Below, piece after piece: positions 792-13,352 of a DNA stretch of 13,352 bases. Position 1 is the first letter of the stretch, and every line of letters begins with the position of its first letter. The position numbers and the translations under genes were made by a program. Under the pieces are notes generated by a model. It saw only the letters and a program-made list of their open reading frames with translations, was not told the DNA's origin and searched no databases. Source of the stretch: Desulfuromonas sp. SDB (lineage in GTDB: Bacteria; SDB-A); contig LKUE01000114.1 in NCBI GenBank assembly GCA_001412365.1, positions 1-13,352 on the forward strand, given 5' to 3'.

Positions 792-3700
792 TTAACGGAT
801 TACAGTAATGTTTTTTGTTTCAGTGTAATTATCGGAAGTAAATCTTACGAAATAACACCCATTGGATACTGAACTGCCTTTAGAATCTAATGCGTTCCAA
901 GTTATTTCATGAAAACCGGCATTTTTAAACCCATTTTCTAAAGTGGTTACTCTTTGACCTGCAATGTTGTAAATACTGATATTGATATTTGAAGAAATGG
1001 GTAGTGAATATCTGAATAAAGCTTGATCCTGGATAATATTATTACTGCAGATGAACGATAAATCAATATTTTGACCATTAAAATTTAAAGCATTCTGAGG
1101 ATTCATATTTTCTTTTGACTCACCAAATTTACTTATGGCATAATCTGAACTTCCATCTTCATGGTACATTGTTCCGGCAAAAGTAACACTACCATTATTA
1201 TTTGCACATACGTTGGCAATTGTTGATTTGTACCAAAATTGATTGTAAATTACTTCAAATGGATTGCCGAACATAAAACTTCCTGATTCAATATCATAAA
1301 TATCTCTTGTTACTAGTACTGCACAACTTTCTTCTAAGCAAGGATCCCATCCCTGTCCACTGCAACAATAAACAAAACTTTCACTCAATCCAACTTTTGT
1401 AATTGAATTGATATTATAAATATAAGGATGTGAGTTACTAGAAAATTCAGTAAAATTAATCTCATTCCCATTAACATCAGTTTCTCTGATGAAGCCACCT
1501 GAAGAAGTTGAACCAACAATCATGAATCTATTTCTGTCTGGGATGTAAGCGACATCCTGTGGATCCGAATCAGTCGTATAATCAACATGAGAATGAATTG
1601 TTCCATCCGTATTTACCACCCAAAATGAATTACCTATCATCACATATTTTCCATCACTTCTTTTTGCAACTGTTTTTAAAGAATCATATACTGAATTGAT
1701 ATCACTATAAATAAATGATTTATTAAATTCAAAACTCCCATCATCACAAATACAACATTCTCTTACCCAATTAAATTTATCATCAGTTATCCCATTACCT
1801 AGAAGGATATAATGTTGATATGATGTCTCAATAATATCCAGTATTGGACTGATAATATCTTCTGTTGAATTAATATATTCATTCAGATAATTATAGTTAT
1901 TATCATAAACAACTATCTTTTTAAGGTAATTTATATCTTGCTTTCCACCTACAAAAATCAAGTAACCATCATTGGTCTCAATAAAACATGTGATTGTATC
2001 CATATCAATATTCGATATAACTGTAGCAGTATCAAGTTCACCATTTGCTTCAATTAACTTATAGATAGAGCCATTCTTAACTAAAACCAAATGTTCACCA
2101 GTACTTTTTTGAATTACATACTGACCATAACTATTACCTCCAGCACCGCCTTCATCCCAGTAATTAGCCCAATCAAGATCTCCAATATAGCCACCCGCAT
2201 CAGAGTACCAATAGGCATGTTTTAAAGTGTCAACAAATGGCTTGAAAATCCCTGGCTTCTGAACAGTTAGAACTACATCAAAAATATTGTCTGAAGTTCC
2301 GGATCTATATAATTCATAATCCATATGAACCCACCCAGATTGACTTGTAGTATCTATATAACAGCCCCAATTATTAATATTATCATTTTCTTCGGGGAAT
2401 GATATGGTTACTATTGCATCTTCTACCGGATCAGGTTCTCCATCTCCAGTTGGTACCTTACATACTTCCACATCATATTCTGGATAAGGATGTTGACTGG
2501 TAAGATGGATGTAATGATTATGGAATACCGAAAATGATTCAAGATCATTAATGTACCATAAATTGGATTCCGGATCACCCAATAAGTTAAAGTTGTTTAC
2601 CAAATAATGAAACCTACCCGGCGGAAAAGTTAGAAGAGTTATTAAACCGGCATAATTACTTCTTCCAGTACAAAATCCTGCTCCAGTATTTTTTGTGTAA
2701 TAATCATTTGTTTCCGGGATTAAATATGTCGAAATATCTACAGCTATGCCATCTGATGGTCCAATTTGAGTATTATGAGGATAGATTACCCCTAATCTTG
2801 AACTCATAATAGTACCAATTGCTCTGCTTCCATTGCTATATTCACTGGCGGTTAATTTCTCTGCTAAACAATCTTCTGAATTGTCAAACCATCCGCAATT
2901 ACATGCGGGAGTTACAATAAAACAGGGTGGAGTATTAGCTAATAATTGACCTAACATTGGTATCCATTGATGATAAACGTTTCCATACCAATAAGTTCCA
3001 CCAATGTTACCATGAGCTGAGATATAACAAAAAATATTACCATTTTGTAAGCAGGTGGGGACACTTGGAAAATTTGGACATGAGTAATTCTCTTCAAAAA
3101 GACCAGTAACATTAAATAATGACGATATTTCACTGTATAATAAATAACATGCTGTACTGCCTAGAGCAATATCACCTAACCTTGCCCCAACAAGCAATAT
3201 ATTCCAGGAGTGATCATTATTTTGATATAATTCATATTTTATTTGATCCTCCACCCAATCTTCAACCTGACCTACATCTTCAACAGGAATTCGCCCTACT
3301 AATATGTCACCCATCCAATCACATGCATCATTATCAACAAAATATTCTCCATAAATTAAATTATTATTTTCATCCCAATCATAATAATAAGGTACTATAT
3401 CTGAAAAGTACATATCACAAGGAACATCATAATGAACCCAGCCTATTGATGAAAATTTATAACCAATAGGTATTGTTCTATAAATACCATTATCCGTGCC
3501 TGCAAAATTAGCATAAATCAATCCAAAACGATTGTGATAATCCTGGAGAAAATGCCTTATTTTCTCCTGTATATCCACACCACTGTAAGTACTATTAATC
3601 CAGCTTGTAGTAACTACTTCCGAGGGAATCCCCCTTGCTTTCTTCCATCTGATAAGAGGTTCGAAATAGTCAACAAAGCTCTCATTATTGACTATGACTA

Positions 3701-4358
3701 CATATTCAACTAAACCTTCATATTCAGCCAATTCTCTAACCATTGGTGAGTATCCAATAATATCTAAATCATTATCCACTAAATCAGCCACCATATCCTT
3801 AAAAATATTGTATTGATTTGGAGATAAGGAAATAGCAATTTCTTCATTTAATTCGTAATCAATTTGAATTTGAGTGCTTAGTAGCATTTGTAATTCATTG
3901 GTAACCGGATTGTAACGGAAGGGGCATATTACTGCTCCAGTTAACATAAATCCGGACATGTTCCCATTATTAAAGGTAATTAATGGTGATTCAGGAAAAA
4001 ATTGATTTAAACTGTAAACTGAATCATTTTCCGGTGTAAATGTAGTATCATCTGGAGATGATGAACCTTGTTGCTGAGGTATGATATCATAATAACCTAA
4101 GGATATCCATTCCTGATTTTCCAATGAAACATTTGAAGCTTTTGAGGTTTGAGGAATACAGTAGTTATAGATCAAGGATGGTAAAGCGGGGTATCCAGGT
4201 TCAGAACAAGAAACTCCGTCATCAATTTGGACTATATCGTAATCTTCATATTCTGAAAATGATATTCCATCCAAGTTAAATAAGATATTTTTCTGCAACA
4301 TCTGTCCGTTTAAGCTGTTCAATGTTACTGTCATTGTCAATAAAATTATCCACTTCAT
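792..4358 (-). CDS. Secreted C25-family (gingipain-like) cysteine peptidase with C-terminal sorting domain
   Basis: This 1188-residue exported protease is counted from the ATG at 4358. The frame extends to a GTG at 4397, but the ATG has AGGAGG four bases upstream and begins a clean signal peptide (MKWIILLTMTVTLNSLNGQ, residues 1-19), so 4358 is preferred. Residues about 20-215 look like a C25 propeptide. The C25 core spans about 218-600, with the conserved YISAHGNIGG containing His449 and VTPACNCGWFD containing Cys486. These are the expected catalytic dyad, about 37 residues apart as in gingipains, and a family-typical FNLLGDP segment follows. Residues about 735-1085 form repeated beta-rich blades (propeller-like) with clustered cysteines (868, 869, 871 and 998, 999, 1007, 1012). 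The last ~100 residues match a FlgD-like / type IX secretion sorting domain (SIYNIAGQRV, then CYFVRF and KNITVIR). The protein is probably surface-attached or secreted and cleaves other proteins. A sigma-54-type promoter lies upstream. The family call is firm; the substrate is unknown. Confidence 0.92.
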   Translation of the reverse strand: MKWIILLTMTVTLNSLNGQMLQKNILFNLDGISFSEYEDYDIVQIDDGVSCSEPGYPALPSLIYNYCIPQTSKASNVSLENQEWISLGYYDIIPQQQGSSSPDDTTFTPENDSVYSLNQFFPESPLITFNNGNMSGFMLTGAVICPFRYNPVTNELQMLLSTQIQIDYELNEEIAISLSPNQYNIFKDMVADLVDNDLDIIGYSPMVRELAEYEGLVEYVVIVNNESFVDYFEPLIRWKKARGIPSEVVTTSWINSTYSGVDIQEKIRHFLQDYHNRFGLIYANFAGTDNGIYRTIPIGYKFSSIGWVHYDVPCDMYFSDIVPYYYDWDENNNLIYGEYFVDNDACDWMGDILVGRIPVEDVGQVEDWVEDQIKYELYQNNDHSWNILLVGARLGDIALGSTACYLLYSEISSLFNVTGLFEENYSCPNFPSVPTCLQNGNIFCYISAHGNIGGTYWYGNVYHQWIPMLGQLLANTPPCFIVTPACNCGWFDNSEDCLAEKLTASEYSNGSRAIGTIMSSRLGVIYPHNTQIGPSDGIAVDISTYLIPETNDYYTKNTGAGFCTGRSNYAGLITLLTFPPGRFHYLVNNFNLLGDPESNLWYINDLESFSVFHNHYIHLTSQHPYPEYDVEVCKVPTGDGEPDPVEDAIVTISFPEENDNINNWGCYIDTTSQSGWVHMDYELYRSGTSDNIFDVVLTVQKPGIFKPFVDTLKHAYWYSDAGGYIGDLDWANYWDEGGAGGNSYGQYVIQKSTGEHLVLVKNGSIYKLIEANGELDTATVISNIDMDTITCFIETNDGYLIFVGGKQDINYLKKIVVYDNNYNYLNEYINSTEDIISPILDIIETSYQHYILLGNGITDDKFNWVRECCICDDGSFEFNKSFIYSDINSVYDSLKTVAKRSDGKYVMIGNSFWVVNTDGTIHSHVDYTTDSDPQDVAYIPDRNRFMIVGSTSSGGFIRETDVNGNEINFTEFSSNSHPYIYNINSITKVGLSESFVYCCSGQGWDPCLEESCAVLVTRDIYDIESGSFMFGNPFEVIYNQFWYKSTIANVCANNNGSVTFAGTMYHEDGSSDYAISKFGESKENMNPQNALNFNGQNIDLSFICSNNIIQDQALFRYSLPISSNINISIYNIAGQRVTTLENGFKNAGFHEITWNALDSKGSSVSNGCYFVRFTSDNYTETKNITVIR

Positions 4359-4368: not shown

Positions 4369-4441
4369 AAAAAAAATGTTTTAGGTACATTTGACACAAA
4401 ATCTTAGTCATTCACTTACACGAGCTCGTTCCTTTTTTATG

Positions 4442-4459
4442 TGCAAATATTGTGCCAAA
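4442..4459 (-). promoter_or_regulatory. Sigma-54 (-24/-12) promoter of the C25 peptidase gene
   Basis: The minus strand reads TTTGGCACAATATTTGCA. This matches the sigma-54 consensus TGGCAC-N5-TTGCA, with the invariant GG (4456-4455) and GC (4444-4443) exactly 10 bases apart. The predicted start of transcription is about 4431, giving a leader of about 70 bases before the ATG at 4358. A nearly identical element lies before the neighbouring PqqD-like gene, and the next gene beyond encodes a sigma-54 activator, which strongly supports function. Confidence 0.85.
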
Positions 4460-4642
4460 ATGATTATGAATTTAAATAATTAAGAGAGTTAAACTATTTT
4501 CAGGAAATTTTTGAAAAACTTATATAATTCAATACTAAATACAACAAAGAAAAAAGTATCTTATTTAAAAATTATACAAAATTTTACGAAAATATATTTT
4601 TGTCTTTATGATGGATAAAAAAATTGATCGATTGAAATACAG

Positions 4643-4659
4643 TGTTCTATAATAGAACA
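4643..4659. promoter_or_regulatory. 17-bp perfect dyad, possible activator site upstream of the peptidase promoter
   Basis: TGTTCTATAATAGAACA has 8-base arms around one central base. It lies about 220 bases upstream of the predicted peptidase transcription start, within the usual reach of a sigma-54 enhancer site. A second 17-bp dyad with the same TGTT...AACA ends occurs at 5127-5143. It could instead be a second RNA hairpin after the PqqD-like gene, but no T-run follows it directly. The binding role is inference. Confidence 0.4.
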
Positions 4660-4675
4660 GATCATTTTAGACAAT

Positions 4676-4703
4676 AAAAAAAATTACTCCCTTCATTGAG
4701 GAG
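4676..4703 (-). terminator. Probable intrinsic terminator of the PqqD-like gene
   Basis: Just after the PqqD-like stop codon, the minus strand has CTCC...GGAG (4703-4687) forming a stem of about five pairs including one G-T pair, with a loop of seven bases. It is followed by TAATTTTTTTT (4686-4676). The T-run is strong and the stem modest. It would separate the PqqD-like transcript from the peptidase gene, consistent with the peptidase having its own promoter. The remaining 4460-4642 stretch is AT-rich with no recognisable gene. Confidence 0.6.
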
Positions 4704-4709
4704 ATAAGA

Positions 4710-5042
4710 TTAACCAGCATATTTAATATCAGGAATTCTTCTGATTTTTGATAAAATTATCTCACTATTGAATTCAATGATTTTTTTATCGTAGAAATCC
4801 TTTAACAAACGATTTACTGAATGTTTATAATTCATAATTTTATGCTTATAAACATAACTGATAATATTAATTATATCATCAACTGAATGTCTGCCATCAC
4901 AACGGATGAGAACTTCTTCCTGGAACCGGTCTAATTCCAGGTAAATGCCGTTCTTATCCGAGGTTATTTTTGCATTGTAACATCTTCCATCACAATACCG
5001 GTTGAATTCAACTCCTTCACAGATACTGGGATAGTTTTTCAT
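4710..5042 (-). CDS. Stand-alone PqqD-like protein (RiPP recognition element fold)
   Basis: This 110-residue protein resembles the PqqD family. These small winged-helix proteins bind the leader of a ribosomally made peptide and hand it to a modifying enzyme, usually a radical SAM protein. The signature is seen from about residue 35 to 91: LELDRFQEEVLIRCDGRHSV, then a helical DDIINIISYVY stretch, a second helix, and LLKDFYDKKIIEF. This corresponds to the family pattern of a central beta hairpin, the 'cdG.rtv.eI' turn, and the terminal 'fl..L...glI' helix. The N-terminus is unusual in carrying Cys8, Cys17 and Cys21 (CDGRC), which might bind metal. The start has AGGAGG four bases away. It has its own sigma-54-type promoter and its own terminator. 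No radical SAM enzyme or credible precursor peptide is visible within this window. The fold is likely; a role in peptide modification is only possible. Confidence 0.7.
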   Translation of the reverse strand: MKNYPSICEGVEFNRYCDGRCYNAKITSDKNGIYLELDRFQEEVLIRCDGRHSVDDIINIISYVYKHKIMNYKHSVNRLLKDFYDKKIIEFNSEIILSKIRRIPDIKYAG

Positions 5043-5062
5043 TTTTCCTCCTCTTTGGTTAT

Positions 5063-5080
5063 TTAGTGTTTTTCCACTAA
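5063..5080 (-). promoter_or_regulatory. Small hairpin at the 5' end of the PqqD-like transcript
   Basis: The inverted repeat TTAGTG / CACTAA flanks a six-base spacer and overlaps the predicted transcription start (about 5076). In RNA it would form a short hairpin with a GAAAAA loop ahead of the ribosome-binding site, perhaps affecting stability. The stem is only six pairs, so chance is possible. Confidence 0.25.
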
Positions 5081-5086
5081 TAATTT

Positions 5087-5104
5087 TGCAATTACTGTGC
5101 CAAA
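5087..5104 (-). promoter_or_regulatory. Sigma-54 (-24/-12) promoter of the PqqD-like gene
   Basis: The minus strand reads TTTGGCACAGTAATTGCA, again TGGCAC-N5-TTGCA. The GG (5101-5100) and GC (5089-5088) are exactly 10 bases apart. The predicted transcription start is about 5076, leaving a leader of about 34 bases before the ATG at 5042. The element lies between the activator gene and the PqqD-like gene, so the latter need not depend on read-through. Confidence 0.85.
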
Positions 5105-5126
5105 TAGGAGAAATTTCAGATAAAAG

Positions 5127-5143
5127 TGTTTTCTTTTAAAACA
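5127..5143. promoter_or_regulatory. 17-bp TGTT...AACA dyad upstream of the PqqD-like promoter
   Basis: TGTTTTCTTTTAAAACA has 6-base arms and a 5-base centre. It sits about 60 bases upstream of the predicted PqqD-like transcription start and 20 bases after the activator stop codon. It shares length and ends with the dyad at 4643-4659. It may be an activator site, or a weak AT-rich hairpin ending the activator transcript. Confidence 0.3.
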
Positions 5144-5163
5144 ATATATAGATATTTATTGAT

Positions 5164-8100
5164 TTAATTTGATTTCTTTAAATTATTTTTATCAATTATT
5201 CTATATAGCTTTGCCCTTCCAATATTTAATTCTTTTGCTGTTTTTGAAATATTCCAGTCCTTTCTGCTTAAAGCTTTTTCCACAAAGTTGACTTCAACAT
5301 CTTCAATAATTTCAGAAAGCGGTTTACCCTTATACTTGTCAAAATCATTTATTGATTTGATTTTGATTTTTTTATCAGAAACCATTATTTCATTTTCATC
5401 AATTGGATTGTCCCCATGATGATTAACTACTACTTTGGCAATTACATTTTCCAATTCCCGGATATTCCCCGGCCAGTGGTGGTGAGTAAGTTTGTCAATT
5501 GCAGGCTGGTTGAATCCTGATATATTCTTGGAAGCAAGATTATTATACTTTTCTAGTATATGATAAGCTAGACTGGTTATATCTTCCAATCTTTCCCTTA
5601 GGGGAGGAACTCTGATTTTCAGTACATCCAACCGGTGATATAAATCTTCCCGAAAATTTCCATTCTCCACTTCTTTATACAAATCTCTATGGGTGGAAAC
5701 TAAAACCCGCACATCTACCTTTATGGGACTCTGTCCTCCTACTCTCCATATTTCATTGTTTTGAAGTACTCTTAATAATTTAGTTTGCAATTCAATAGGA
5801 ATATCCGCAATTTCATCAAGTAGTAGAGTACCTCCCTGGGCAAGTTCGAATTTACCTTTCTTAGCTGAAACCGCCCCGGAAAAAGCGCCTTTTTCATGTC
5901 CGAAAAGTTCAGTTTCCGCTAAACTTTCCGGAACAGCTGAACAGTTAATGGCAACAAGAGGTTTATCTCTTCTATTACTCAATTTATGTAGAGCTCTGGC
6001 TACTAATTCTTTACCTGAACCGGTTTCCCCGGTTATATAAACAATCATATCCATTTTAGAACAATTTTCAATTTGACGGTAAAGTTCTTTCATGGAGGGA
6101 CTATTGCCGATAAATAATCCAAGGTTTTTAATTTCAGAAAGATGTTTGTTATATTTTATCTTTTCATGTTCCACCAAGATAGGAGTCAATATTTCTGCAG
6201 TTTCCAGAACAATTTCAACATCCTGATCGGTGAAAAAACCATGTTCAATATTCCGGCGATCAAGATATAAAGCTCCGAATATTTCATCTTTCGAAAGAAT
6301 AAGGGGAACTGCAATTACAGAGAGAAAAGATTTTTCAATGATGCTGGGATTATTTTTCAATTTTTCATTTTTAATAGCATCGGGAATTAATACTGGTTGA
6401 TTAGTTATAACTGCTTCTGAAAGAATGCCCTTGCTTAAATCAATCTCCTCATTTTCCATTTTGGTGGAAACTGATCTTATCTCAAAATTATTTATATCAA
6501 CCAATTTATTGGAAGCATTACTAGAACCAACAAATTTGCTAATTATCATCTCCGGAGAAAGGTCATCTCTCACTATTAAAATAGCACTGTCCGCATTTAT
6601 GGTATTTTGAAGATAATTCAAAAATTCACGGTATGCAGTCTCCGGCTTTAATAGTTTTACCAATCTTTGAATCAATTTCATTTCATCTTTCAGTTTTTTA
6701 GTTGAGTCTAAATATTCTTCTAACTCCATATATTTTAATTTATATACAGGATTTGTGCTATGTTCAATAACTCTTTTATATAATTTACAGGCATTCCTTG
6801 CATCAATATCAGCTTGTCTAATCAAGTTTTGATCATCAGATTTATATTTTAAATTCCATAACTGGTAGTATATTTCCGCCTTTTCTTCGATCTTTTTTGA
6901 ATTATCCAGGACTTTATTAAGTAAATTTGCAATAATTAAATCCTGTTGACCTTTTTTTGTTTTCAACATTTGTTTCAGTTCTTCTTTTTTAAAACACTCT
7001 TTACAACAATCATTTAACTCCTCTATTGCTTGATCATATTTATTACAAGCAATATACGTGCCAATTAGTAACAATATAATCTTAAACTTGAGATTATCTT
7101 CGTATTTTAAATTAAATGAATTTTGCAGTTTATAAATTAAGTTTTCGGTTACCTGGTAATTTCCTAAAAAGTAAGAGCATACTGCAGCTTTGTACAACAT
7201 CATTCTTACTTTTTGATTTTCCAGTGAATGATAATATTGATAATTCAATACTGATAAATATTTCTTTTTTGCCTTTAGAAATTCTTTTCTCAGCAGGTAG
7301 ATATCGCCGATTTTATTATTGAGATTAATAATATTTTCAATGCTGCCAACTTCACTACTAATCTCTAAACTCTGTTCATAATAATGAAGGGCTTTAGATG
7401 TTTCCCCACGATTGCTGAAACTATCAGCAAATTCAATTAATCCGATTATTTTTGCATATTTGTTATCTGTGTTATCACAGATATCAATAAATTTGTTAAA
7501 ATAATCTTCAGATTTATCCCCTGCTTTTTTGTATATATAGATATTTCCGATATCCTTATAATTTTTTCCCAGGTTATCCTGATTGGCAAGAGTTCTGTTT
7601 ATATCCGCGCTTTTCTTAAAATATTTCAAGGCTTGGTCAAATTTACCCCGGAGATTGCAGAGATTACCGAAATTACTATAGCTATTTGCAACTAAAGACA
7701 TATCTTTTAATTGCTGTCCAATATCCAATTGCTGTTGGTAACAATTTTCTGCTTTATCATATTTTTGATTGTGGGAATAAATATAACCAAGTTCTGACAA
7801 AATCTTCCCTTGGAGGACAAGATCATTAATATTCTTTTGGTATCTCAATGCAATAAGCAGGCTTTGTTCAGCTTTATCGAAATCACTCAGATGAGTATAT
7901 AAATTACCCAGGCTTCTATTCACACTTGCTTTTAACTGGTTATCATCACATTGCTCTGAATCTTTACAAGCTTGAATAAGATATTTTTCAGCATGTTTAA
8001 ATTTCTGCACTTTTTCCAGAATTTCGCCGATATTTCTGTGCAAAATTACTTTTGTTTTTAAATCCAATAAATTTTGTGCTTCAGCTTCAACTTTTTGATA

Positions 8101-10314
8101 AATTTTCAAAGCTTTTTCATTATCAAATTTCAATCTGGCAATATCTCCCGCGATCAATGCATATTTTACTGTTTTAGTACTTACCCCACTATTCCAATAA
8201 AATTCCGATAAACGGTTAACTGAATCCTCTTGTTGATATTTAAGAATATCTTCTAAATTCAAACCATCCACTTTCTGCATCAATTCAGACTCATAGTATT
8301 CGGCTATTGCTAAACTCATTTTTCGAAAATAATCTTTATTAAGATTATTTAGAATTACTTCTCTAATTCTGGAATGATTGAAACAATATTGATTCTCCGA
8401 AAAAATCAATATTGATTCCTCTGCCAGTTGATCTAAAACTTCTAATGTTTTAGTTTCATTCCATTTCAACAACTTCATGGACATATCCACATCAATGTAT
8501 TCACCTGCAATTGAATTTAATTCGGCTAGAGATTTTTGTTCAACAGATAAATTTGTCAATTTTTTTTCGATTAAGTTTGAATAAAAATCAGTTTCAGCTA
8601 AATTAAATGCTTCAGTTATAGTAGATAAATTCTTGATCTTTTGGTGGATTTTATTCTTATACAAAATATCAATTAATTCTTTAATAAAAAGAGGTAAACC
8701 CTGGGTATAGTTAACCAAATCCTTAATCTCTCTTTTATTTAAACTTTCACCAAAATAATTATTGAATAAATGGGATATTTCTTCGGGATCAATTTTTGAT
8801 AAATGAATTTCAGTCCAAAAAGTATTTGTATCTTTTTCTAATTTTGACTCAACTAATCCCTGACTGAACATATCTTTCCTGGATAAGGCGATGATAAATA
8901 TTCTTGATTTCTTAAGATCTCTTTCCGAGAACTTCAACCATCGAATAAAAGGAGCATCTGATAATTGGAGATCATCAAAAATCAAAACCACGCAGGGAGA
9001 TGAAAATTTACTGGGATTTTTAAATGCAGTCTCTGAAAAATTAATTAAAAACTTTGTGATAACCTGGAAAAATTTCATTTCCGCTTCTTCTCCAGACAAA
9101 ACAGGTATGCGTTCCAATAATTCAGAAAATTCATAATTCTTCAAATCTGGATCAATATTCATCAAATCAGAAGCCAGATTGCCCAGAAGTTTCACTCTCT
9201 TTAACTCCGAAATTAACTGACATGAGTTTATCAAGCTGTTTATCAGTATTTTAAAAGGCTGATGTAAATACCCATGTTCCTTGAGATTTACAGTTATAGC
9301 AGGGATTTGTTCTAAATCCAAATTCAGTTTAAATTCCTCCCATAGCCTAGACTTACCGATTCCTCCTTCCCCATATATATATACTCCTGATCCCTGCTTA
9401 TTGTTTGCTCTTTCAAATCCTTTCTTTAATTCTTTCAATTCAGTTTTTCTTCCCAAGAACATAGTTCCAAACATTATCTTAGTGTCCACTAACAAAGGGC
9501 AAACAGTAGAGGTAGAGGATAGCAATCTAACTAATTGGTAAGATAACTCCTGACAGGATTCATATCGTTTATAAGGCTTTTTATGCAAAAGTTTACAGAT
9601 AATTTTCTTAGCTGGATCCGGCAATTCAGATTGAGGTTTGCTTAAATCCTTTATATCTTGATTTATATGAGCCATTGCAATTTCGGCAAAACTATTACCG
9701 GTAAAAGGCGGTTTTCCAGTAAGCATTTCAAATAAAATAATCCCCAAAGAATATAAATCACTTCTATGGTCAATTTTACTGGCGTTAACACATTGCTCAG
9801 GCGAAGAATAGTGAATTGATCCCAAAAACAAACCTTCCATTGTCAGTTGAAGATCATCATTTAACTTCATCAAGTCAAAATCGGTAATTTTTACTTGGTC
9901 ACTCTTATCAATCAATATATTTTCCGGTTTAAGATCTCGATGAACTATTTGATTTCCATGTAATTCATTTAAACCTTCACAAACTTGGCATATAATTGAT
10001 ATTACCTGATCGAGATTCAGATCATAATTATGAATTTTCTGAATATACGCTCTTAAAGAATCACCATCTACATACTCCATTACAAATCCGACTTTATCCT
10101 CTTGTTCTATCCATTCAATCATTTTAACCAAATGGGGATTATTTAATTTCTTAGCAGCGATAAAGCTTCTTTTAAATCTTCTCCGCTGATCCTGATTATG
10201 TAAGGCTTGATGGATTATTTTTAAAGCGGCAATTCTATTATCTCTAGCATTCCTTACCCTGTATACATTTGAAAAAGAGCCTTCAGAGATTTTTTCTTCA
10301 ATAATCCAATTCAT
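5164..10314 (-). CDS. Giant sigma-54 activator: Ser/Thr kinase, STAND-like ATPase, TPR, GAF, AAA+, Fis-type HTH
   Basis: This 1716-residue cytoplasmic regulator has six modules. (1) A Ser/Thr kinase spans about 1-265: VYRV after a reduced glycine loop, Lys32 in AALKI, HRDLKPEN at 125-132 with Asp127, DFD in place of DFG at 145-147, and SPE at 171-173. (2) A STAND/AAA_16-type ATPase spans about 285-700, with LGRKTEL, Walker A GEGGIGKS at 315-322 and Walker B IFDD at 445-448. (3) A TPR array spans about 720-1110. (4) A GAF sensor domain spans about 1225-1390. (5) A sigma-54 interaction AAA+ domain follows, with Walker A GETGSGKE at 1429-1436, GAFSGA at 1476-1481 (the sigma-contact loop, Ser for Thr), Walker B LLLDE ending at 1501, and WPGNIREL before the C-terminus. 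(6) A Fis-type HTH lies at about 1672-1714. There is no response-regulator receiver, so kinase, ATPase or GAF inputs should control it. The ATG is forced by an in-frame TAA nine bases upstream; no Shine-Dalgarno site is evident. Its likely targets are the two sigma-54 promoters immediately downstream. Confidence 0.95.
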   Translation of the reverse strand: MNWIIEEKISEGSFSNVYRVRNARDNRIAALKIIHQALHNQDQRRRFKRSFIAAKKLNNPHLVKMIEWIEQEDKVGFVMEYVDGDSLRAYIQKIHNYDLNLDQVISIICQVCEGLNELHGNQIVHRDLKPENILIDKSDQVKITDFDLMKLNDDLQLTMEGLFLGSIHYSSPEQCVNASKIDHRSDLYSLGIILFEMLTGKPPFTGNSFAEIAMAHINQDIKDLSKPQSELPDPAKKIICKLLHKKPYKRYESCQELSYQLVRLLSSTSTVCPLLVDTKIMFGTMFLGRKTELKELKKGFERANNKQGSGVYIYGEGGIGKSRLWEEFKLNLDLEQIPAITVNLKEHGYLHQPFKILINSLINSCQLISELKRVKLLGNLASDLMNIDPDLKNYEFSELLERIPVLSGEEAEMKFFQVITKFLINFSETAFKNPSKFSSPCVVLIFDDLQLSDAPFIRWLKFSERDLKKSRIFIIALSRKDMFSQGLVESKLEKDTNTFWTEIHLSKIDPEEISHLFNNYFGESLNKREIKDLVNYTQGLPLFIKELIDILYKNKIHQKIKNLSTITEAFNLAETDFYSNLIEKKLTNLSVEQKSLAELNSIAGEYIDVDMSMKLLKWNETKTLEVLDQLAEESILIFSENQYCFNHSRIREVILNNLNKDYFRKMSLAIAEYYESELMQKVDGLNLEDILKYQQEDSVNRLSEFYWNSGVSTKTVKYALIAGDIARLKFDNEKALKIYQKVEAEAQNLLDLKTKVILHRNIGEILEKVQKFKHAEKYLIQACKDSEQCDDNQLKASVNRSLGNLYTHLSDFDKAEQSLLIALRYQKNINDLVLQGKILSELGYIYSHNQKYDKAENCYQQQLDIGQQLKDMSLVANSYSNFGNLCNLRGKFDQALKYFKKSADINRTLANQDNLGKNYKDIGNIYIYKKAGDKSEDYFNKFIDICDNTDNKYAKIIGLIEFADSFSNRGETSKALHYYEQSLEISSEVGSIENIINLNNKIGDIYLLRKEFLKAKKKYLSVLNYQYYHSLENQKVRMMLYKAAVCSYFLGNYQVTENLIYKLQNSFNLKYEDNLKFKIILLLIGTYIACNKYDQAIEELNDCCKECFKKEELKQMLKTKKGQQDLIIANLLNKVLDNSKKIEEKAEIYYQLWNLKYKSDDQNLIRQADIDARNACKLYKRVIEHSTNPVYKLKYMELEEYLDSTKKLKDEMKLIQRLVKLLKPETAYREFLNYLQNTINADSAILIVRDDLSPEMIISKFVGSSNASNKLVDINNFEIRSVSTKMENEEIDLSKGILSEAVITNQPVLIPDAIKNEKLKNNPSIIEKSFLSVIAVPLILSKDEIFGALYLDRRNIEHGFFTDQDVEIVLETAEILTPILVEHEKIKYNKHLSEIKNLGLFIGNSPSMKELYRQIENCSKMDMIVYITGETGSGKELVARALHKLSNRRDKPLVAINCSAVPESLAETELFGHEKGAFSGAVSAKKGKFELAQGGTLLLDEIADIPIELQTKLLRVLQNNEIWRVGGQSPIKVDVRVLVSTHRDLYKEVENGNFREDLYHRLDVLKIRVPPLRERLEDITSLAYHILEKYNNLASKNISGFNQPAIDKLTHHHWPGNIRELENVIAKVVVNHHGDNPIDENEIMVSDKKIKIKSINDFDKYKGKPLSEIIEDVEVNFVEKALSRKDWNISKTAKELNIGRAKLYRIIDKNNLKKSN
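7047..7064 (-). promoter_or_regulatory. Intragenic match to the sigma-54 consensus
   Basis: Inside the TPR part of the activator gene, same strand, the sequence reads TTGGCACGTATATTGCTT. GG and GC are exactly 10 bases apart, and the core (TGGCACG-N4-TTGC) is closer to consensus than the two intergenic promoters. It encodes ordinary protein sequence (IGTYIAC), so it may be chance. If active, it would start a transcript of the GAF-AAA+-HTH half. Confidence 0.35.
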
Positions 10315-10398
10315 TTTAGTTTACAAATACGGTATTTAGGATATAAATAAAATACAATAAACTATTTTGTATTAAAATCGAACAGAAGTAAAACAAAT
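10315..10398. promoter_or_regulatory. Divergent intergenic control region with two dyads
   Basis: These 84 bases separate the two divergently transcribed regulators and must hold both promoters. AAATACGGTATTT (10325-10337) is a perfect 13-base dyad 11 bases from the activator start. AATACAA (10351-10357) and TTGTATT (10367-10373) form a second inverted repeat with a 9-base spacer. The region is so AT-rich that a specific -35/-10 pair cannot be assigned. No sigma-54 element is present, so the regulators themselves are probably housekeeping-sigma transcribed. Confidence 0.4.
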
Positions 10399-13352
10399 AT
10401 GTATCCTAATCTAATACCCAGTTTTATTGCGGATAAATTTCTTATATTCAGAAATTTAAACAAAGCTTATAAGGAAGGGGAACTATGGGCAGGGGTACTA
10501 TTCGTGGACATATCCGGTTTCACTGGAACCACCGAACAATTGATGAAAAATGGCAAGGAAGGAGCAGAAGTTCTATCCAATCTGATTAATGAGATTTTTT
10601 CTCCGAGAATAGAAACAATATACAAAAACAGTGGATTCATAACCCACTTTGCCGGAGATGCTTTTTGCGCAGTTTTTCCAAAAGATAAAAATTTAGTCAG
10701 AAGAATATTTACCAGTGCCCAGGAAATTCTTGATCAGTTTATTAAGCAAGGCAGTTACAAAACCAAATTCGGTTCATTTAATTTCTCGGTTAAAATAGGC
10801 ATTTCCTATGGAAAAGTTATCTGGGGGATAATATTCAATCAACATCAAAATGCTTATTATTTCCGGGGAGAACCACTATATCAATCAGCGGAATGTGAGA
10901 AATACTGCCAGGGTAATGATATAATTTTTGACTATAGTATTAAATCTTTAATAAAACAAGAAAAGATAAAATTCACTAAAATTGATAATTCAAAATTCAA
11001 ACTTAAAAATATTGATTTTATTTTCAGAGGTAGAAAAGAAATTAGGAAGATTAAAAACCAGTTAAATCTTGGATTCTATCCTGAATATTTATTTAATTTA
11101 TCGCAATCAGGTGATTTTCGAAACGTAGCTACCTGTTTTATATCATTTTCAAATGAAACTAATATTCACACTTCATTGAGTAAAATAATAGATTTAGTTC
11201 ATCAATACGGTGGTTACTTCAACAATATCAATTTCGGGGACAAGGGATCATTTTTGTTGGTATTCTTCGGGGCACCTTCCACTCAGGAAAAGATTTATCT
11301 TCATGCAGTTGATTTTGTATTGGAAGTAAACGAAATTGAAAATTTTCAACCTTCAATTGGAATTAGTTACGGGCAAGTTTACTCAGGTTTTCGAGGAAGT
11401 AGATCCCGTGCAGAATACATTTGTCTGGGATCAGTGGTAAATCTTTCTGCTCGTTTAATGAAAAAAGCTGGTTCAAATCAAATTCTAACCAACCATGACT
11501 TATCCCAGAAAATTAATGAGGAATACCAGGTAAAACATATTGGAAATAAAAAATTAAAGGGATTTAAAAATCTTCAACCAATTTATAAAGTACTGGGGAA
11601 AAGAACAATAACCTTAAAGCTTAAATACCGGACAGACTTAGTTGGAAGAGAGAAGGAATTAAATAAACTTAAAGACAAGATAAATAGGTCTCTTTCCTCC
11701 TCTAAAAAAATACTTGCCTATATTTATGGAGAACCGGGAATCGGCAAAAGCAGATTGCTATATGAATTAAAAGAAAATATACCTGAAAATATTAAAATAT
11801 TTGAATTTCAGACTGACAGTATTTTAAAAAAGAATTTTAACTGTATTTTAACAACTTTTAATAAGCTAGTTAATCATCAGGAAGTAATCCCCAGAAATTT
11901 TAGTTTAGTTAAATTAAAGAACAATTTTCTCAAGTTTATTGAAAACTACAATTTACAAAAATACATAGAAAAATTGAATTTCCAATTGGACGAATTTTTT
12001 GATGTTATCTCTTCTTTATTTGGATTTTCAAATGAGAAGTCATTTTTATCCAATCTGCCACCCCAAGATTATCAAAAGCAATTAATTGAATTAGTCTATT
12101 TATTATTGAAAATTTTAATCAGTAAAAATAAATGTATACTTTTTATCGAAGATTTGCATTGGATGGATTTTAATTCCAGAGAGGTTTTTAATAGATTAAT
12201 ATTGGATTCAAAGATTTCATCTCCTTTTATCATCACCAGCCGCTATACCGAAAATAAAGAAAAGCCAGCTTTTGATTATGTTAAAGGAATTGAAAAGACG
12301 GTTATAGAATTAAAAGGTCTTAGTAAAGAAAGTGAGAAAATTATAATTGAAAAACTTCTAAAAAATAATATTTCCGAAAATTTATATATAAACATACATC
12401 AAAAAGTTCAGGGCAATCCTTTTTTTCTGGAACAGTATTGTAATTTTCTGGTTGAATCAAATTTACTGGAGTTTGCTGAAAATGCTTTAAAACTAACTTG
12501 CAAACAAATTGAAATTCCCACCAATATAAATGACATGATCATGTCCAGGATTGATCATCTTTCCAGGGAATTAAAAAATTTAATATTCATTTCTTCAGCT
12601 TATGGATCGGAGATTGATTGTTCGTTATTTACAGAAATATTGAAAAAATTAAACATTAAGTTAAAACCAAAAAAGTTCAACAGAGTAATTTCCGAAGGGA
12701 TTGAAAAAAATATCTGGGATAAAAAAGATGATGATATTTTAATTTTTCATCATATTCTTATCAAAGAAGTTGCCTATGAGATGCAATCAAAACAACAGTT
12801 GAGACAATACCATGGAAGTATTGGAAATATTTTGGAAAAGACTTATCCTGGACAACCAAGTTTCTTTTCTAATTTGGCTTATCACTATCAAAAGGCAGGA
12901 ATTGATGAAAAGGCAATTGAGTATTTGGAAAAAGCAGGTGATTGGGATAAAAAGAATTATTATAACAAATCAGCAATTGACCATTACCATCAGCTTTTAA
13001 ATTATAATTTACCTAAACCTAGAATAGTAAACATAAAAATGAATATTGCCGAAATCTACACTACCATAGGAGAATATGCTAAAGTTTTTGTAATTTATCA
13101 TGATAATCTTGAACTTTCCCAGAACAATTCAGAACTTCAAGCAGATAATTTCTTTGGACTTGGTTTTTATTATTACAATACTGGTGAATACTTAAGAGCT
13201 TTAAGCTATTATCGAAAAGCGAAGAACATTTATAAACAACAAGGATATAAAAAAGAACTGATAAAAATTTATTTGTACACAGGATTTATTTTAAAAGATA
13301 AATGTAAGTATGGATTAGCAGTTATTTTTTATCGGAAAGTTCAAAATTATGC
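10399..13352 (+). CDS. Soluble adenylyl cyclase-like protein: tandem class III cyclase, STAND-like ATPase, TPR (truncated at window edge)
   Basis: The frame stays open for 984 codons to the right edge, so the C-terminus is missing. Domain order matches the soluble adenylyl cyclase (sAC) type. The first cyclase domain spans about 30-200, with FVDISGFT (metal Asp37) and HFAGDAF (second metal Asp87). The second cyclase domain spans about 240-400, with FGDKGSFLLVFFGAP at 279-293, EYICLGSVVNLSARLM at 339-354, and the transition-state pair Asn348 and Arg352. An ATPase begins at VGREKEL (415-421), with Walker A GEPGIGKS at 444-451 and Walker B ILFIEDLHW at 580-588. TPR-like repeats run from about residue 820. 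One composite active site (metals from the first domain, Asn/Arg from the second) seems intact, so it probably makes a cyclic nucleotide. However, the base-selecting Lys of sAC is His83 here and the Thr counterpart is Ile341, so ATP versus GTP preference is uncertain. It is divergent from the sigma-54 activator and shares its ATPase-TPR design. The start is the first ATG in frame; only a weak AGAAG precedes it. Confidence 0.92.
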   Translation, partial: MYPNLIPSFIADKFLIFRNLNKAYKEGELWAGVLFVDISGFTGTTEQLMKNGKEGAEVLSNLINEIFSPRIETIYKNSGFITHFAGDAFCAVFPKDKNLVRRIFTSAQEILDQFIKQGSYKTKFGSFNFSVKIGISYGKVIWGIIFNQHQNAYYFRGEPLYQSAECEKYCQGNDIIFDYSIKSLIKQEKIKFTKIDNSKFKLKNIDFIFRGRKEIRKIKNQLNLGFYPEYLFNLSQSGDFRNVATCFISFSNETNIHTSLSKIIDLVHQYGGYFNNINFGDKGSFLLVFFGAPSTQEKIYLHAVDFVLEVNEIENFQPSIGISYGQVYSGFRGSRSRAEYICLGSVVNLSARLMKKAGSNQILTNHDLSQKINEEYQVKHIGNKKLKGFKNLQPIYKVLGKRTITLKLKYRTDLVGREKELNKLKDKINRSLSSSKKILAYIYGEPGIGKSRLLYELKENIPENIKIFEFQTDSILKKNFNCILTTFNKLVNHQEVIPRNFSLVKLKNNFLKFIENYNLQKYIEKLNFQLDEFFDVISSLFGFSNEKSFLSNLPPQDYQKQLIELVYLLLKILISKNKCILFIEDLHWMDFNSREVFNRLILDSKISSPFIITSRYTENKEKPAFDYVKGIEKTVIELKGLSKESEKIIIEKLLKNNISENLYINIHQKVQGNPFFLEQYCNFLVESNLLEFAENALKLTCKQIEIPTNINDMIMSRIDHLSRELKNLIFISSAYGSEIDCSLFTEILKKLNIKLKPKKFNRVISEGIEKNIWDKKDDDILIFHHILIKEVAYEMQSKQQLRQYHGSIGNILEKTYPGQPSFFSNLAYHYQKAGIDEKAIEYLEKAGDWDKKNYYNKSAIDHYHQLLNYNLPKPRIVNIKMNIAEIYTTIGEYAKVFVIYHDNLELSQNNSELQADNFFGLGFYYYNTGEYLRALSYYRKAKNIYKQQGYKKELIKIYLYTGFILKDKCKYGLAVIFYRKVQNY

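Follow-up and report, generated by a model that had tools for sequence, protein, structure and literature searches.

The locus described here raises the question of whether a giant sigma-54 activator, encoded beside two matching sigma-54 promoters, controls the genes that follow those promoters and so forms a regulon with its neighbours.

Gene content of the locus

The window, that is, the whole stretch of DNA analysed (13,352 bp), is an entire contig of a 3.14 Mb draft genome, whose family is represented by three relatives only among the genomes compared. The giant activator gene (5164..10314, 1716 aa) is followed on the minus strand by a small-protein gene (4710..5042, minus strand, 110 aa) and a C25 peptidase gene (792..4358, minus strand); a nitroreductase gene also lies on the minus strand of the contig. 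Divergent from the giant activator gene, across a gap of 84 bp, is a cyclase-AAA_16-TPR gene (10399-13350) which runs off the contig and whose ATPase-TPR layout is common to the giant activator.

The peptidase has the C25 and propeptide domains (PF01364, 87 bits; PF08126, 45 bits, Pfam) together with a type IX sorting domain (TIGR04183, 29 bits against a cut-off of 23), and SprA_N of the type IX secretion system is encoded in the source genome. It is thus a secreted peptidase, as the earlier note had proposed, and belongs to the gingipain family. Its start is placed at the ATG at 4358, while the list of open reading frames gives an upstream GTG at 4397. The PqqD-like label that the same note gave to the 110-aa protein is weak. 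Residues 31-90 are weakly PqqD-like, and both family models score below their curated cut-offs (TIGR03859, 21 of the 46 bits needed, E = 1.7e-4; PF05402, 14 of the 23 bits needed, E = 0.06). A PqqD fold predicted with AlphaFold was of low confidence (mean pLDDT 44) and was not usable, and a sequence search of solved structures returned nothing credible. No relatives of the protein were found in the 385 other genomes searched, and Pfam recognized no radical SAM partner among the five main window genes.

An intrinsic terminator (4687..4703, minus strand; CTCCTCAATGAAGGGAG followed by TAATTTTTTT) is predicted after the small gene. It is the sole terminator-like site in 4380-5300 (shuffle mean 0.2), and would divide the two target genes into separate units. 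A perfect 15-bp inverted repeat with a 2-bp loop at 751-782, just past the peptidase gene, is also a likely terminator.

The giant kinase-activator protein

As a rule, a sigma-54 activator is phosphorylated by a histidine kinase or binds a ligand. In the 1716-aa protein, the order given by the Pfam scan is kinase, AAA_16, TPR, GAF, sigma-54 activator, AAA lid and Fis-type HTH. The Ser/Thr kinase occupies residues 5-257 (PF00069, 188 bits), AAA_16 residues 286-460, the TPRs residues about 837-1107, GAF residues 1225-1376, the sigma-54 AAA+ domain residues 1402-1567 (PF00158, 233 bits) and the Fis-type HTH_8 residues 1670-1705. With the AAA lid also present, the protein adjoining the promoters is a complete sigma-54 AAA+ activator, in agreement with the earlier reading of the locus.

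The Walker A (GETGSGKE) and Walker B (LLLDE) motifs are conserved in an alignment with two paralogues, and the kinase residues K32, D127 (of HRD), N132 and D145 are invariant in the seven giants aligned. The kinase motif of the source giant is DFD, not DFG. The L1 loop reads GAFSGA here and GSFSGA in both paralogues, compared with the consensus GAFTGA. GAFSGA is among the variants expected to retain activity in a Desulfovibrio study (PMC4641369), and changes at the F and T of GAFTGA mostly lower activity (PMC3162934).

Two sigma-54 promoters

The promoters P1 (5087..5104, minus strand; TTTGGCACAGTAATTGCA) and P2 (4442..4459, minus strand; TTTGGCACAATATTTGCA) both match TGGCAC-N5-TTGC exactly and keep the GG-N10-GC spacing. 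The ATGs of the genes downstream, at 5042 (P1) and 4358 (P2), both lie within an identical AGGAGGAAAAATG. From the end of the element to the ATG there are 44 nt for P1 and 83 nt for P2; with a predicted start 12 nt past the GC, the distances become about 34 nt and 73 nt, respectively. The two matched sigma-54 promoters first noticed by eye in this stretch are therefore confirmed in consensus, spacing and placement before both genes. Absence of rpoN had been named as grounds for rejecting them; the source genome carries it (PF04552, 161 bits, E 4e-47 in the Pfam scan), so they are not rejected on this count.

Throughout the 3.14-Mb genome there are 7 copies of the exact core, compared with 0 in the reversed control, and 5 of the 7 lie shortly before a gene start. 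The one-mismatch core occurs 86 times genome-wide versus 36 in the control; two-mismatch matches in the window showed no excess (5 found, 5.0 expected). Chance falls far short of explaining two exact sites that are intergenic, lie 645 bp from each other and each precede a gene start. A third exact core (TGGCACGTATATTGC, 7049-7063, minus strand), which the earlier note had passed over, lies inside the activator's own coding sequence. It was also observed that one-mismatch cores are strand-skewed on the deposited contigs of the source genome (57 reverse and 29 forward; control 16 and 20).

These features, all read from sequence, make it probable that the one-protein sensor and its neighbouring targets constitute a local sigma-54 regulon. 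A signal read by the input half (kinase, STAND-like AAA_16, TPRs and GAF) would allow the AAA+ domain to assemble as a hexamer, the Fis-type HTH would bind both of the palindromes described below, and the GAFSGA loop would remodel the sigma-54 holoenzyme poised at the two promoters, such that the 110-aa protein and the secreted protease would be produced at the same time. The substrate of the kinase may be the activator itself or a different protein.

Paralogues in the source genome

Two giant paralogues, on contigs C208 and C353, have the same architecture and 33-37 percent identity in alignment. On C208, an exact site (TGGCACGGAAGTTGC) is located directly downstream of the giant gene, 36 bp before a signal-peptide gene, and the gap contains 3 of the genome's 9 copies of the AACAAWTTGT repeat (WAACAAWTTGTNNC), a motif derived from this gap itself. 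On C353, a contig that ends inside the giant gene, TTTGGCATAAAAAATGC is found shortly before the ATG of a divergent signal-peptide gene. From the layouts of the window, C208 and C353, all three giants in the source genome adjoin a sigma-54-like site preceding another gene; where the sequence downstream is complete (window and C208), each giant has a repeat of its own. The earlier note had suggested asking whether TGGCAC-N5-TTGC sites cluster with related activators genome-wide; they do, both of the other giant paralogues adjoining a sigma-54-like site.

Candidate enhancers and alternative explanations

Candidate enhancer 1 (5127..5143, minus strand) is the palindrome TGTTTTAAAAGAAAACA. It lies 20 bp past the stop codon of the activator gene, and P1 is about 22 bp downstream of it. 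Candidate enhancer 2 (4643..4659, minus strand) is the palindrome TGTTCTATTATAGAACA, about 185 bp upstream of P2; no T-run follows it, and by sequence it is therefore not a terminator. Given that the largest promoter group in D. vulgaris lies within 100 nt of the activator site, with a few beyond 300 (PMC4641369), both distances are acceptable. The 17-bp form TGTTYT-N5-ARAACA, a motif derived from the locus's own two sites, was found five times in the whole 3.14-Mb genome, twice at this locus. When both upstream regions were shuffled, a matching pair (perfect palindromes of equal spacing, with arms differing by no more than one base) arose in 186 of 20000 cases (0.9 percent). Each palindrome taken singly is not longer than in shuffles, and support for the two thus comes from their pairing and genome-wide rarity, not from their lengths.

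Two other treatments of the palindromes were rejected. As RNA hairpins they were unsupported (folding z of -0.8 and +0.9), and their one-mismatch copies were too many to be meaningful (186 matches versus 78 in the control). A weak copy with two arm mismatches (TGTATTAAAATCGAACA, 10368-10384) lies in the 84-bp gap between the activator and cyclase genes, where autoregulation is possible.

The palindromes might be functionless or belong to another regulator, with the giant acting on both promoters while in solution or bound elsewhere. Their unexceptional single lengths are in keeping with this, as are the remaining three genome copies, two of which are in coding sequence and one upstream of a TrpR-like gene. 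It is nevertheless somewhat unlikely, in view of the pair test, the analogous locus-specific repeat at C208, and the repeated identical palindromes that are clear at L097, a giant locus of another genome (p below 0.01), and marginal at a second, L085 (p = 0.04).

A local regulon run by the giant must also be weighed against the proposition that P1 and P2 are true sigma-54 promoters driven by another complete activator, the giant acting elsewhere. Ten strong PF00158 proteins are encoded in the source genome, i.e. nine besides the giant, and sigma-54-like sites occur at many loci. Further intergenic ones precede signal-peptide-like proteins, a type IV pilin-like protein, response regulators and a NifX-like protein, all named from N-terminal sequence except those that were Pfam-scanned. 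With nine other strong activator-domain proteins and such sites at unrelated loci, the description of the regulon as self-contained is not fully supported. The unequal enhancer-promoter distances, the DFD motif of the kinase and the many giants of other genomes that have no significant downstream site also count against the local regulon. The paired palindrome beside the giant gene nevertheless favours the neighbour as activator, as does the sigma-54-like site next to both paralogues, and control by a different activator appears unlikely. It is very improbable that P1 and P2 match the consensus by chance and that both genes are transcribed from ordinary sigma-70 promoters: sigma-70-like matches at the locus are as common as chance (8 versus 6.2 in shuffles) and 2 of the 7 exact genome sites are intragenic, but the exact consensus stands at two intergenic sites with the correct spacing and position, is absent from the genome-wide reversed control, and recurs in a similar arrangement at related loci.

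Giants and split pairs in other genomes

About 30 proteins of the giant's size and layout, from many families, were recognized with a seven-giant profile among 386 genomes. The three sister-genus genomes contain activators, none of giant length, and a GAF-linker alignment scan of named genomes gave no relatives. A scan with RpoN yielded a single distant locus, in Petrocella, at 31 percent. The exact core was present within 600 bp downstream in 4 of 31 giants (shuffle mean 0.02, reversed control 0) and the one-mismatch core in 6 of 31 (shuffle mean 0.32). Based on a consensus score with our own weighting, the 500 bp downstream contain a sigma-54-like site significant at p<=0.05 in 11 of 30 giants, and at p<=0.01 in 8 of 30; the other 19 of the 30 have no significant site. 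At the giants' loci, the gene after the downstream site usually opens with a signal-peptide-like stretch.

In two giants of one family (L095 and L099) the downstream site is TTGGCAC-N5-TTGA, an A replacing the usual C of the -12 GC. The secreted proteins downstream of giants at L085 (2031-5048), L089 and L101 open alike (ATPAPGDIDVPRD, PYPGATDVPRD); judging from these openings, a related effector family may travel with giant activators.

Downstream sigma-54-like sites were also found in 3 of 20 unfused GAF activators used as a control. The idea that such sites are special to giants was accordingly dropped (10 of 29, window excluded, versus 3 of 20; Fisher p = 0.19). Because ordinary activators have downstream sites too, adjacency does not single out the giants. 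Activator-target adjacency is normal, and it is the kinase fusion that is the unusual part.

Among the 20 closest unfused activators, seven have a separate Ser/Thr kinase gene immediately after them. The encoded kinases are 27-34 percent identical to the kinase domain of the giant, and the two that were checked with Pfam are kinase-PEGA proteins. Such a split pair corresponds to the giant in unfused form, and suggests that kinase and activator would act together. The kinase gene overlaps the activator gene by 3-25 nt at L116, L118, L120, L123, L124, L128 and L132.

Comparison with known systems

The giant has the same kinase-ATPase-TPR order in its N-terminal two thirds as kinase-AAA_16-TPR signalling proteins and MalT/STAND-type regulators. 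The outputs of those proteins are a histidine kinase or a LuxR-type HTH, whereas that of the giant is a sigma-54 activator. No kinase-fused sigma-54 activators were found in an open-access literature search. An older study of Pirellula activators reportedly may describe one.

The GAF-type enhancer-binding proteins NorR, NifA and FhlA (group 3, PMC7175178) have in common with the giant a GAF domain directly before AAA+, a C-terminal HTH, and conserved Walker motifs and L1 loop. Unlike this group, the giant has an N-terminal Ser/Thr kinase, AAA_16 and long TPRs, extends to about 1700 aa, and carries GAFSGA instead of GAFTGA in its L1 loop. Its input architecture is absent from the group table of the same paper (PMC7175178).

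An activator adjoining sigma-54 promoters of exported proteins also recalls the sigma-54 exterior regulons, for which the theme of the survey was EPS, flagella, LPS, lipoproteins and cell wall (Francke et al. 2011, PMC3162934). Unlike those in the survey, the targets here include single secreted proteins, one of them a T9SS-type peptidase, beside a kinase-fused activator. The C25 domain, propeptide and type IX sorting domain are shared with peptidase family C25 (gingipains). This member differs from the others in the sigma-54 promoter ahead of its gene and in the phylogenetically isolated organism that carries it.

Implications

The regulon logic is ordinary for sigma-54, and the interest of the locus lies in the fused kinase, the split version of this arrangement and the palindromes specific to each locus. 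A wider reading, which we put forward tentatively and which as a whole is less than probable, would take the giants as widespread, undescribed one-protein cassettes in which each sensor gene is followed by a palindromic enhancer of its own, then by a sigma-54 promoter and the gene for a secreted effector. In the same reading each duplicate would have a distinct enhancer code, the split pairs would be the two-gene form, and the giant's own kinase would control the activator by phosphorylation.

With this layout, sequence by itself is enough to predict the enhancer, the promoter and the target. Similar layouts beside related sensors in unrelated bacteria suggest a compact and repeated way of controlling secreted proteins. 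If the kinase does control the activator, there would be a direct tie between Hanks-type kinases and the sigma-54-dependent production of secreted proteins in little-studied bacteria.
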